Shown here: piece by piece, positions 21,944 to 25,866 of the stretch | Position numbering within the stretch: the first letter of the stretch is position 1 | How the letters are laid out: the number at the start of each line of letters is the position of its first letter | NCBI GenBank assembly: GCA_913057645.1 | Contig: CAJXOU010000035.1 | Location: forward strand, 1 to 32,209 | Length of the DNA: 32,209 nucleotides | Direction of reading: 5' to 3' | Origin: an uncultured Rhodobiaceae bacterium | GTDB taxonomy: Bacteria > Pseudomonadota > Alphaproteobacteria > Parvibaculales > Parvibaculaceae | Translations under genes and position numbers: made by a program | Notes under the pieces: generated by a model | Told to the model about the DNA's origin: nothing | Seen by the model: only the letters and a program-made list of their open reading frames with translations | The model's database searches: none

Positions 21944-22723
21944 TTACTCAACCCACTTCTCGAAAATCTTCCGCTTCTTCCCACTCGCCTCCATCTCGCC
22001 AAGCCAATCATCGACGCGCACTTTCCACGCCTCGTCCTTCGGCAGCAGGTAGGCCTTCTCGGATTGCGTGAAGGGCGCGTCCGGGTTGGTCGCGCAGAGC
22101 GTGGGGTAGTCGCGCGCGACGATGCGCGTTTCGATGGCGTCGGTGATCATGACGTCGGCGCAGCCTGCCGCGATTTCCTCGAAGATCGTCGCATTATCGG
22201 TGTGGAGGACGAGCGTCGCGTTGGAGATGTTCGCGCGGGCGAATTTTTCGTTGGTGCCGCCGGGATTGACGATGACGGTGACGCCTTCGCGGTCGATCCC
22301 GTCGAGGGTCGCGAAGCGCGCGGCGTCTTCGCAGCGCGCGACGGGCGCCTTGCCGTCGGTGAGGAGCGGCGCCGAGAAGAGGGCGCGTTCCTTCCGCTCG
22401 TCAGTCACCGAAATGCCGCCCATGCCGATGTCGTATTTGTCCGCGGCAAGGTCTTCCATCAGCGTTGGCCAGCTCGTCCGCACGATGACGAGGCGGACGC
22501 CGAGTTCTTCGGCGAGCGCTGCGGCCATCTCGGCGTCGAGCCCCTCGAAATGGCCTTCCGGCTCCTCCCAGGAAAAGGGCTTGTAGTCGCCGGTGAGGCC
22601 GATGCGGACCTCCCCCGTGGTCTCGATCCGCTCGAGCACGGGGCTCTCCTCGCCGCAGGCGGCCAGAGAGGCAGCGAGGGGGAGCAGAAAGGCGAGGAAA
22701 AGGGCAGGCAGAAGGCGGCGCAT
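21944..22723 (-). CDS. pheC: PheC-like cyclohexadienyl dehydratase, predicted lipoprotein
   Basis: The product is 259 residues. It is a periplasmic-binding-protein fold with signatures of PheC: GDYKPFSW, TSWPTLMEDLAADKYDIGMG, VNPGGTNEKFARAN and DVMITDAIE, with EKAYLLPKDE near the C-terminus. PheC converts prephenate or arogenate to phenylpyruvate or phenylalanine outside the cytoplasm. The signal peptide ends SLAAC with C23, a good lipobox, so unlike soluble PheC this copy is probably lipid-anchored. An amino-acid-binding transport protein is the alternative, but no permease or ATPase gene is adjacent. TATTAT at 22730-22735 lies six bases before the ATG and no ribosome binding site is present, suggesting a leaderless mRNA. 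Confidence 0.8.
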   Translation of the reverse strand: MRRLLPALFLAFLLPLAASLAACGEESPVLERIETTGEVRIGLTGDYKPFSWEEPEGHFEGLDAEMAAALAEELGVRLVIVRTSWPTLMEDLAADKYDIGMGGISVTDERKERALFSAPLLTDGKAPVARCEDAARFATLDGIDREGVTVIVNPGGTNEKFARANISNATLVLHTDNATIFEEIAAGCADVMITDAIETRIVARDYPTLCATNPDAPFTQSEKAYLLPKDEAWKVRVDDWLGEMEASGKKRKIFEKWVE

Positions 22724-22729
22724 GGCCGG

Positions 22730-22735
22730 ATAATA
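22730..22735 (-). promoter_or_regulatory. Candidate -10 element of the pheC-like gene
   Basis: TATTAT on the minus strand matches TATAAT at 5 of 6 positions and sits six bases before the ATG at 22723. No good -35 is visible at 17 bases. Confidence 0.35.
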
Positions 22736-22772
22736 GTCGGAGAGGGGGGCTCCCGGAAGGCCGCGCCTTTAC

Positions 22773-22801
22773 TGGACTGTTAAGGGACCGGCTGCTAGAA
22801 A
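22773..22801 (+). promoter_or_regulatory. ileS: Candidate ileS promoter
   Basis: TGGACT (22773-22778), 17 bases, and TAGAAA (22796-22801) match 4/6 positions each. Transcription would start at about 22807-22810, that is at the first base of the leader-peptide ATG, which has no ribosome binding site. Confidence 0.45.
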
Positions 22802-22809
22802 CTCGCCCC

Positions 22810-22881
22810 ATGACGAAGCTGGGAGCGAGCGGGACCCATCCCGCCATAATCGCGCGAATTACAGGCCCGGCCTGCCGCTGA
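22810..22881 (+). CDS. Putative isoleucine leader peptide of ileS
   Basis: This is a 23-codon reading frame, ATG to TGA, too short for standard gene finding. Codons 13, 14 and 17 are ATA, ATC and ATT, so IIARI uses all three isoleucine codons within five positions. ATA is otherwise very scarce in this GC-rich window. The stop lies inside the 5' arm of the hairpin at 22866-22910. The frame has no Shine-Dalgarno sequence, but the predicted transcription start makes it leaderless, as known for the trpL leader of Sinorhizobium. Inference: a ribosome short of charged tRNA-Ile stalls on these codons. Confidence 0.6.
   Translation: MTKLGASGTHPAIIARITGPACR
22829..22844 (+). promoter_or_regulatory. 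Upstream (pause-type) hairpin in the ileS leader
   Basis: GCGGGA-CCCA-TCCCGC is a 6-bp stem with a 4-base loop directly before the Ile codons. GGACC at 22832-22836 could instead pair with GGTCC at 22891-22895, giving a mutually exclusive alternative structure. Confidence 0.45.
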
Positions 22882-22916
22882 GGACCAGATGGTCCGGGGC
22901 AGGAGCCGGGTTCTTT
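22866..22916 (+). terminator. Attenuator hairpin before ileS
   Basis: CCCGGC (22866-22871) pairs with GCCGGG (22905-22910), CTGCC (22872-22876) with GGCAG (22898-22902), and GGACC (22882-22886) with GGTCC (22891-22895). TTCTTT follows. A ribosome stalled on the Ile codons would cover the left arm and prevent the stem, allowing read-through into ileS 40 bases downstream. Confidence 0.6.
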
Positions 22917-22950
22917 CACGTTCGCGCAACCCCGATTTCCAGGACCTTCC

Positions 22951-25866
22951 ATGTCGACCGATACGACGTCCACCGACACGACCGAAGCCGAGCCCCGTGA
23001 CTATCGCGGCACGCTGTTCCTCCCGAAAACCGATTTTCCGATGAAGGCGGGCCTGCCCGTGCGCGAGCCCGAATGGCTGGCGCGCTGGGAGAAGCTCGAT
23101 CTCTACGGCAGGCTCCGCGAGAGCGCGAAGGGCCGCGAGACCTTCGTCCTGCATGACGGGCCGCCTTACGCGAACGGCAACATCCATATCGGCCATGCGC
23201 TGAACAAGATCCTGAAGGACATCGTCGTCCGCTCGCAGCAGATGATGGGCAAGGACGCCGCCTATATTCCGGGCTGGGACTGCCACGGCCTGCCGATCGA
23301 ATGGAAGATCGAGGAGAAGTACCGCAAGAAGGGCAGGAACAAGGACGAGGTGCCGCCGCTGGAGTTCCGCCGCGAATGCCGCGAATTCGCTCAACATTGG
23401 GTCGACGTGCAGCGCGAGGAGTTCAAGCGCCTCGGCGTTTCCGGCGAGTGGGACAATCCCTACCTCACCATGTCGTTCGACGCCGAAGCGAAGATCGTCG
23501 AGGAATTCCAGAAGTTCCTGATGAACGGCTCGCTCTATCGCGGCTCGAAGCCCGTCATGTGGTCGGTCGTGGAAAAGACCGCGCTGGCGGAAGCGGAAGT
23601 CGAATATCAGGATCACACCAGCCACACGATCTGGGTGAAGTTTCCTGTGCAAAGCAGCGGTGGCGACGTTCCTTTCACGAGCTTGCTCAACGCAAACGTT
23701 GTCATCTGGACGACAACGCCGTGGACCATTCCAGCGAACCGCGCGATCTCTTATTCGCCGAAAATCGCCTACGGACTTTATGAAGTCACCGCCTCGGGCG
23801 AGAAACTCGTTCTTGCCGATGCGCTGGCTGAGCAAGTGAAGAAGGACGCCAGGATCGAGGAGTGGACCCGGCTCGAAGACGTGCCTGCGAGTTCTCTCGC
23901 TCTGACTGTTTGCAAGCACCCCTTCAACGGCGTTGAAGGAGCAGATGACTATTACGATTTCGGCGTTCCCCTTCTCGCCGGCGACCACGTCACGGAAGAG
24001 GCCGGTACCGGCTTCGTGCATACCGCGCCCGGCCACGGTCAGGACGACTACATGATCTGGGTCGAGAACTTTGGGCAAAAGGACATCCCCGAAACCGTGA
24101 ACGAGGAAGGCGGATACTACGACCACGTGCCGCTCTTCGCGGGCAAGTTCGTGCTGACGCGGCAGGGCAAGGAGGGGAACGCCAACGCCGCCGTGATCGA
24201 GGAGCTGGAGAAGGCGGGCGCGCTGCTTGCCAAGGGCAAGGTGACCCACTCCTATCCGCATTCATGGCGCTCCAAGGCCCCGCTCATCTTCCGCAACACG
24301 CCGCAATGGTTCGTGGCGATGGATGCGAAGATCGAGGCGGCGGGCGGCAAGCCATTCCGCGACGTCGCGCTGGAAGAGATCGAGAAGGTGCGCTGGGTGC
24401 CCGCGCGCAACCGCAACCGCATCTATTCGATGGTCGAGGGCCGCCCCGACTGGGTGCTGTCGCGCCAGCGCGCCTGGGGCGTGCCGCTGACGCTCTTCGT
24501 GAACAAGAAGACGGGAGAACTGCTGCGCGACGAGGCGGTGAATGCGCGCATCGTCGAGGCGGTCGCGAAGGAAGGTGCGGATGCCTGGTTCGAACATCCG
24601 GCAAAAGATTTCCTCGGCAATGACTACGATGCGGTGGACTACGAGAAGGTCACCGACATTCTCGACGTCTGGTTCGATTCAGGTTCGACCCATGCCTTCG
24701 TGCTCGAGGCGCGCGGGCTGCCGGTGCCGGCCGACCTCTATCTCGAAGGCTCCGACCAGCATCGCGGCTGGTTCCAGTCGTCCCTGCTCGAAAGCTGTGG
24801 CACCCGGGGCCGCGCACCTTACAGGCAGGTGCTGACGCATGGCATGACGCTGACCGACAAGGGCCTCAAGATGTCGAAGTCGCTCGGCAACGCGATCGAG
24901 CCCGAAGCGATCATCAAGCAGAACGGCGCGGACATCCTGCGCCTCTGGGTCGGCTCGACCGATTACTGGGAAGACCACAATATCGGCAACGACATCATCA
25001 AGTCGAATGTCGAGGGCTACCGGAAGTTGCGCAACACTTTCCGCTACCTGCTCGGCAATCTCGACGGCTTCGCGGAGGAAGAGCGCGTCGCGGTCGCCGA
25101 CATGCCGGAACTCGAACGCGCGATCCTGCACCGTCTCGCCGAACTCGATGCGCTCGTGCGCGGCGCCTATATGGATTACGATTTCAAGCGCGTGACGCAT
25201 ACGCTGTCGAACTTCATGAATGTCGATCTCTCGGCCTTCTATTTCGACATCCGCAAGGACACGCTTTATTGCGACGCGCCGTCGAGCTTGCGCCGCCGCG
25301 CCTGCCGCACGGTTCTCGACCACCTCTTCTCCTGCCTGACGGCCTGGCTCGCGCCGGTGCTCTGCTTCACGATGGAAGAGGTCTGGCTGTCGCGCTTTCC
25401 CTCGGACGAGGACTCCGTTCACCTGCGCACCTTCCCGGAAATTCCGGGCGACTGGCGCAACGAGGCGCTTTCCGAAAAATGGAAGAAGGTGCGCGAACTC
25501 CGCCGCGTGGTGACGGGCGCGCTCGAGGTCGAACGCCGCGAAAAGCGGATCGGCGCGAGCCTCGAAGCCGCACCGGAAGTCTTCGTCTCGCGGCCCGACC
25601 TTCTCGAAGCGATGAAGGGCGTGGACCTTGCCGAACTCGCGATCACGAGCCAGGCGACGCTTGCCGAAGGCGAGGGGCCGGCGGATGCGTGGCGGCTCGA
25701 CGAGGTGCCGGGCGTCGCGGTGGTGCCGAAGCTCGCCGAGGGCCGCAAATGCGCGCGTTCATGGCGCATCCTGCCGGAAGTGGGGAGCGATCCCGACTAT
25801 CCCGACCTGTCGCTGCGCGATGCGGCGGCGGTCCGCGAATATGATGCCCAAGCGGCGAACGCCTGA
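22951..25866 (+). CDS. ileS: Isoleucyl-tRNA synthetase
   Basis: The product is 971 residues, normal for bacterial IleS. The class I signatures are present: [16 protein letters not shown] with HIGH at 79-82 and [12 protein letters not shown] with KMSKS at 640-644. The CP1 editing domain ([22 protein letters not shown]) removes mischarged valine. The C-terminal zinc motif is degenerate: KCARSW keeps one of the usual cysteines and the second CxxC is absent. AGGA precedes the ATG by about seven bases. Hand counts show third-position GC of about 66% over 23641-24000 against 90-100% in sampled flanks. It heads a run with lspA (12-base gap). Confidence 0.97.

Follow-up and report, generated by a model that had tools for sequence, protein, structure and literature searches.

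Whether and how an alphaproteobacterium adjusts expression of ileS, the gene for isoleucyl-tRNA synthetase, to the charging of isoleucine tRNA is the question raised by a short reading frame and a hairpin that lie directly upstream of this gene in an uncultured Rhodobiaceae bacterium. The DNA analysed here (the window) is a stretch of 32,209 nt, namely contig G000:C35 of a 3.75-Mb genome. In Gram-positive bacteria, tRNA synthetase genes, ileS among them, are often controlled by T-boxes according to tRNA charging; T-boxes bind uncharged tRNA directly, without translation of a leader. For Alphaproteobacteria, no described mechanism of ileS control was found in the open-access literature searched: no paper combined ileS, attenuation, leader peptide and alphaproteobacteria, none was recognised as describing the element, and the matches listed in a text search for its core letters looked unrelated. 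The comparison presented here favours, with a probability of roughly two in three, a ribosome-mediated leader-peptide attenuator of ileS, which would sense isoleucyl-tRNA charging and would probably raise enzyme output when charged isoleucine tRNA runs short.

The leader upstream of ileS

The features on which the argument draws are the following:

22773–22778, forward strand: −35-like element TGGACT, seen in close relatives and matched by a T-rich peak in other leaders; missed by a consensus scan
22796–22801, forward strand: −10-like element TAGAAA, 8 nt 5′ of the leader ATG, matched by TAnA(A/G) offsets in other leaders; missed by a consensus scan
22810–22881, forward strand: leader ORF of 23 codons, MTKLGASGTHPAIIARITGPACR followed by a stop, predicted from sequence and comparison to be translated, probably from a leaderless mRNA
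22829–22844, forward strand: small hairpin 5′ of the Ile codons, with a putative role as a pause-type hairpin
22846–22851, forward strand: accessory upstream Ile codons ATA and ATC, not conserved in relatives
22855–22861, forward strand: core CGA-ATT-A, consisting of an Arg codon, the invariant ATT sensor codon (22858–22860) and an A
22866–22910, forward strand: GC-rich hairpin that holds the leader stop, its base 11 nt from the first base of CGA, supported by folding and class-wide covariation
22911–22917, forward strand: U-rich tail TTCTTTC, a possible intrinsic terminator tail, variable in the family and absent in Rhodobacterales
22951–25866, forward strand: ileS ORF for isoleucyl-tRNA synthetase, the presumed regulated gene

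Among the 61 genomes of the ileS search, many have a close full-length relative, although some rows are no more than weak matches to other synthetases. The initial annotation had drawn attention to a 23-codon frame with AUA, AUC and AUU codons packed into five positions and to a GC-rich hairpin, 40 nt before ileS, with the stop codon in its left arm, and both are present in the window. The Ile codons are ATA (22846–22848), ATC (22849–22851) and ATT (22858–22860); when 22773–22950 was base-shuffled, a comparable cluster (three Ile codons inside five positions of a frame opened by ATG) arose in 12 of 20,000 shuffles, in a test framed post hoc. ATA is found at none of the 972 codons (stop included) of the window ileS. 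The hairpin region folds at −30.8 kcal/mol, and the stop codon (22879–22881) sits inside the left arm. The pause-type hairpin also proposed at this locus has counterparts in several genus members, but its stability is no greater than that of shuffles. An outer helix, GCGCGA/TCGCGC, was considered as a general feature around the main hairpin and discarded, as by eye it seems confined to close relatives.

Support for the element rests on comparison with other genomes, because a simple consensus scan of 22500–23100 found no promoter and no terminator, an Rfam scan of the window gave no family at the gathering score (with E values up to 10, P27 alone at E 0.44 on the opposite strand), and the 188-nt fold around the leader surpasses shuffles by a small margin (z −1.87, with 9 of 200 shuffles folding equally well). 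The T-box RNA family is present in Rfam, and in the absence of any family match the window leader does not qualify as a T-box by this search.

Conservation of the ileS leader

The ileS search took in 37 genomes of the family, its own included, and the upstream DNA was read in 29 of them (26 from the first search plus L047, L048 and L049). L008 and L031 had too little upstream DNA, and L024 and L030 were set aside because their match stopped short of the ileS start. CGA-ATT-A is in frame with an ATG in all 29 readable members, the window among them, and every one of these leader peptides ends in R-I-x-x-P plus a few residues; the N-terminal half is variable across the family. With positions numbered from the C of CGA, hairpin pairing starts at +11 to +13 in 28 of 29 members and at exactly +11 in 26, with L020 giving a minimum-energy fold that has no hairpin base at +11 to +13. 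A short frame with Ile codons and a hairpin are thus shared with relatives. The proposal that all three Ile codons serve as a conserved sensor, however, had to be given up: the ATT beside the hairpin alone is conserved, and ATA and ATC are replaced in several close relatives, where the peptides read AINARI, AICARI, ATIARI or RITARI. In the 8 nt past the hairpin, 3–5 T are present in the closest relatives and 0–4 in the remaining family. Outside the family, 17 of the 24 matched class members were fetched; CGAATTA ahead of a hairpin lies upstream of ileS in four of these and CGAATTC in one, and 12 have no core upstream of ileS. The second match in the own genome (C88:798) has no leader with the core.

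A further set of loci was chosen by the protein alone, as the best 80 of at least 590 candidate ileS loci (the named set), and was searched upstream with up to four mismatches to the core plus CCCGG and with the hairpin anchored at +11. This relaxed pattern matched 60 of the 80 loci (44 exactly) and left 20 without a match; four matches (L182, L195, L206, L207) lacked an ATG frame and were not used further. The leader is therefore present at 56 of these 80 loci, as well as in 29 of 29 readable family members. An attenuator is recognised in part by such a short ORF, conserved in the 5′ leader ahead of an amino-acid gene. The sensor codon is ATT in 56 of 56 leaders and is followed by A in 55; within the ileS genes of the same loci, by comparison, ATT serves for 9.1% of isoleucines (198 of 2183 codons). 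The codon before the sensor is CGA in 47 of 56 leaders (otherwise CGG, CGC, AGG, GGG, GGC, TCG or GAG), with Arg exchanged for Gly, Ser or Glu in six. Between the ATG and the core, Ile occupies 91 of 569 codons (16%) in frame vs 19 of 513 and 11 of 513 (2–4%) in the other frames, so that the ORF is enriched in cognate codons, again as in an attenuator; the Ile share in the ileS genes of the 56 loci is 2183 of 50,400 codons. The enrichment peaks beside the core, where the three nearest positions have Ile in 29, 23 and 12 of 56 leaders, and ATA makes up 28 of the 91 in-frame leader Ile codons vs 16 of 2183 in ileS.

A hairpin base at +11 to +13 is found in 56 of 56 named leaders, with a mean z of −3.8 against base shuffles; as these hairpins were selected at +11, the z carries that bias and the spacing reflects the search. 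In the 8 nt past the hairpin, the named leaders have a mean of 1.86 T vs 1.38 further downstream, and at least 4 T are present in 11 of 56; the 16 loci that we take, partly from genus names, to be Rhodobacterales have 0–2 T without exception. The U-rich tail that would turn the hairpin into an intrinsic terminator is thus seen in the window, the closest relatives and 11 of 56 named loci, but not in these Rhodobacterales or in several genomes of the same family. By eye, a second short stem (GGTG/CACC or GGCG/CGCC) seems to trail the main hairpin before ileS in the Rhodobacterales loci L196, L199, L200, L204, L205, L220 and L225. At 21 of the 24 named loci that have no leader, the match is preceded at under 100 nt by the end of a frame of at least 120 codons, an arrangement like that of a ribF-ileS operon; the frames are mechanical calls, counted for those 24 loci.

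A strict pattern, CGAATTANNNNCCCGG-(8–60)-CCGGG, is present in 110 of 387 genomes of the class, and its reversed form, used as a control, in 3. In a sample of the phylum, to which the distribution search was confined, the strict pattern occurs in 47 of 88 class genomes vs 4 of 161 others, with one control match (classes counted from the table). As far as can be judged from these comparisons, the arrangement of leader ORF and ileS recurs widely in Alphaproteobacteria. The pattern fixes the five outer hairpin pairs only and leaves the inner pairs free for a covariation test. The five pairs inside the fixed ones were scored in 34 hits with the hairpin end at +33, where 146 of 170 cells are standard pairs against a shuffle mean of 108.7 and a maximum of 120, and in 35 hits with the end at +34, where 148 of 175 are standard (shuffle mean 115.6, maximum 126); the shuffles ignore relatedness; when the partner is slid by one or two bases, 41–64% of pairs are standard. 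The compensatory changes sought in relatives are thus borne out across the class, and L176 and L181 carry CCCCATTCC-type stems that are paired despite changed sequence.

The layout TGGACT-17-TAGAAA-8-ATG is nearly unchanged among close relatives. The 37 named leaders that contain one ATG only show two peaks, one −10-like at −12 to −8 and one T-rich and −35-like at −36 to −34, and a TAnA(A/G) hexamer starts 12 nt before a leader ATG in 13 of 56 named leaders and 13 nt before it in 11 of 56, with any other offset seen in at most four. The candidate promoter and leaderless frame of the initial annotation are therefore backed by conserved spacing and by offset peaks, but not by the consensus scan. 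In Methylorubrum extorquens DM4, a transcription start was reported 150 nt upstream of ileS, with the promoter TTCCCC-17-TAGAAGcgctcca and A as the start base (PMC9320726). Among 111 genomes of the genus to which G277 belongs, six contain this promoter string; these six read TAGAAGCGCTCC-ATG, and an in-frame ileS start candidate lies 149–151 nt past the A of the ATG (150 in four of six). The 150-nt distance fits the leader AUG, and the published letters, taken literally, put the start one base later, so that the DM4 transcription start agrees with the leader AUG of these six genomes within a base or so. As the promoter spacing suggests, the leader mRNA is probably leaderless. Taken together, a conserved ORF, in-frame Ile enrichment, an invariant ATT, a hairpin at constant distance, covariation and promoter placement emerge from the sequence comparison.

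Other genes behind the leader

A part of all listed strict-pattern hits was read, namely 112 hits in 109 loci (30 + 79 usable regions). Motif sorting assigned ileS to 54 of these hits, a small ACT-like gene to 36, AAA_33 to seven, NTF2-like to four, PALP to two and other genes to nine, and Pfam supports the PALP, AAA_33 and DUF4743 assignments of downstream genes. Among the nine others, L058, L059 and L149 look like chance matches, and L102, L111, L123 and L130 have ACT-like frames by eye. A second main target is a standalone small ACT-fold protein (L052, L060, L063, L064, L100, L101, L150 and others), for which Pfam and NCBIfam matches are weak. Matches of the ACT-like proteins to models of the acetohydroxyacid synthase (AHAS) small subunit are likewise weak (2 of 16 members, best E 0.011 and 0.028), and a profile search of the ACT set in solved structures placed AHAS small subunits at E 0.7–0.8, behind unrelated chains. 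Structure prediction gave a confident fold (mean pLDDT 92). Among solved structures, IlvN matches it best (5ypp, E 9.6e-06), ahead of further ACT folds and folds like them. As modelled, the ACT-like protein resembles IlvN in fold, and this likeness suggests a branched-chain or isoleucine response.

Both PALP targets resemble threonine deaminase (named by eye), and L117, sorted as ACT, has another threonine-deaminase-like PALP gene further down. The AAA_33 kinase-like and NTF2-like targets (L091, L121, L142, L144, L145, L158, L159, L073–L076) have no obvious isoleucine role, and leaders of the PALP, AAA_33 and NTF2 types contain few or no further Ile codons. The leader frame overlaps the start codon of the ACT gene in many cases; some of these frames run through the hairpin and stop at +87 to +120, past the ACT start at about +73 to +83. 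A DUF4743 gene lies downstream of the ACT-fold gene at several loci. At L141, L143 and L146, from three genomes of one genus, two tandem leader copies about 180–200 nt apart precede one ACT-like gene, and at L133 the pattern precedes what by eye is a ribF-like gene, an order that would suit a leader at the head of a ribF-ileS operon.

Proposed mechanism and its alternatives

In the proposed mechanism, transcription would start at or beside the A of the leader AUG, and a ribosome would translate the short ORF with RNA polymerase just ahead. When Ile-tRNA is ample, the ribosome would clear AUU and finish at the stop codon, after which the hairpin would fold and the transcript would end or be held back before ileS; a point against this is that a ribosome at the stop codon also covers the hairpin, so that release must precede folding. 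When Ile-tRNA is scarce, the ribosome would wait at AUU in its A site while CGA occupies the P site, and its leading edge would lie on the first hairpin base pairs. A ribosome footprint reaches about 15 nt beyond the first P-site base and the hairpin begins five bases past AUU; on these distances, the footprint would end on the first five hairpin pairs, and the hairpin would lie within reach of a stalled ribosome, as in an attenuator. A delay in decoding AUU would leave the hairpin unfolded or keep the ribosome pressed against it, the blocked hairpin could not form properly and ileS would be expressed. Ribosome stalling, blocking of the hairpin and the direction of regulation are what we infer from this arrangement. 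A programmed frameshift at CGA-AUU was considered and rejected by inference only, the sequence not being slippery.

The sensor is better supported than the output. In the window, intrinsic termination is plausible from the sequence, and it would be the simplest output there, in the closest relatives and at the 11 of 56 named loci with a U-rich tail; the U-tract is missing in the 16 Rhodobacterales loci, so that this output may not apply in every lineage. Of the initial attenuator interpretation, the probably leaderless leader ORF and the Ile control codons before a hairpin, conserved and covarying, are supported; the use of all three Ile codons is not conserved, and the U-rich tail is absent from part of the loci. 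Several observations speak against an attenuator: the U-tract is weak or missing in many loci, the ACT leaders that overlap the downstream start do not fit simple termination, and the AAA_33 and NTF2-like targets have no evident isoleucine role. Moreover, 52 ileS leaders of the pattern set possess an ATG, and in 15 of these the stretch up to the core is free of Ile codons; the leader is lacking at 24 of 80 named loci and the strict pattern in 277 of 387 class genomes.

It is conceivable, if rather unlikely, that the same sensor acts through another output, with the AUU-waiting ribosome and the hairpin controlling translation, RNA stability or Rho-dependent termination. The 0–2 T past the hairpin in 16 of 16 Rhodobacterales and the few T in several family members would fit such an output, as would the ACT leaders that stop beyond the ACT start and the constant distance of the hairpin from the sensor codon, whereas the window, its closest relatives and 11 of 56 named loci, all of which have a U-rich tail, argue against it. 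One form of it, a hairpin loop that masks the ileS ribosome-binding site, was tried and rejected, as by eye AGGACC could pair with GGUCC in the window, but no such pairing is possible in L005 and L006. Very improbable is a nascent-peptide arrest, in which R-I-x-x-P would stall the ribosome via the exit tunnel and sense something other than Ile-tRNA: the C-terminal peptide is indeed conserved class-wide, yet it is the codon itself that is kept (ATT in 56 of 56) and not the residue alone, Arg is replaced in six of 56 leaders, the P-A/V residues are dictated by the left arm of the hairpin, and the N-terminal part is variable and Ile-enriched. Still less credence can be given to a conserved RNA or DNA signal, such as a protein-binding or processing site, that is independent of leader translation. 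It would account for conservation of the core at the level of letters in the family and at 44 of 80 named loci, but not for the in-frame ATG that 105 of 112 hits have at a distance of up to 25 codons (a count made in the leader frame alone), for Ile enrichment confined to the leader frame or for stems that change in sequence while staying paired, as in L176 and L181.

Extending the leader-peptide attenuator beyond ileS, it can be tentatively proposed that the class possesses a leaderless isoleucine-charging sensor with an invariant AUU five bases before a hairpin, the two being read together. Its regulon might comprise ileS, the standalone IlvN-like ACT gene, threonine-deaminase-like genes and some of the AAA_33 and NTF2-like genes, and its outputs might be several, one of them without an intrinsic terminator. 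The element would thereby link ileS with genes for ACT-fold and threonine-deaminase-like proteins in a possible common response to isoleucine. With its invariant at the codon level, such a leader makes it possible to test directly how a single Ile codon and a single hairpin turn charging into expression, and would permit the annotation of leader ORFs that are now overlooked.

Among known systems, T-box leaders are similar in that ileS would be controlled by tRNA charging, but they bind uncharged tRNA directly, and the ileS element here has no Rfam match in the window. One report mentions a T-box for hisS, and ileS does not occur in its main text (PMC2965389). The statement of the initial annotation that no case is established for ileS in Alphaproteobacteria holds, within the literature searched, for a mechanism but not for the leader as such, as an ileS leader CDS, CCNA_03934, was named in Caulobacter in 2014 together with a trpS leader CDS (PMC4117421). 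It is likewise a short CDS before ileS in the same class; it served as a negative control for overexpression, and the passages concerned contain neither a mechanism nor conservation (PMC4117421). The same paper describes attenuation of Caulobacter ilvBN, which resembles the present element in having Ile codons in a short leader ORF and a stalled ribosome that blocks a hairpin, also in an alphaproteobacterium. In contrast to ilvBN-type branched-chain attenuators, the target here is a tRNA synthetase gene, an invariant AUU stands at a fixed distance from one hairpin, and the U-tract is not universal. An ilvB leader peptide in alphaproteobacteria has also been mentioned, with reference to Vitreschak 2004 (PMC1273637). 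The uORFC-8-2 motif upstream of cysS in Rhodobacterales, for which ribosome-mediated attenuation was proposed, likewise places a leader ORF containing control codons before a tRNA synthetase gene of alphaproteobacteria, but it has Cys codons, two prominent stems and a U run in all cases, and is limited to Rhodobacterales (PMC8632094). A leaderless leader ORF in an alphaproteobacterium is known from trpL of Sinorhizobium, which starts at the 5′ end of the mRNA, although in that case it belongs to a Trp attenuator before trpE (PMC10117765).
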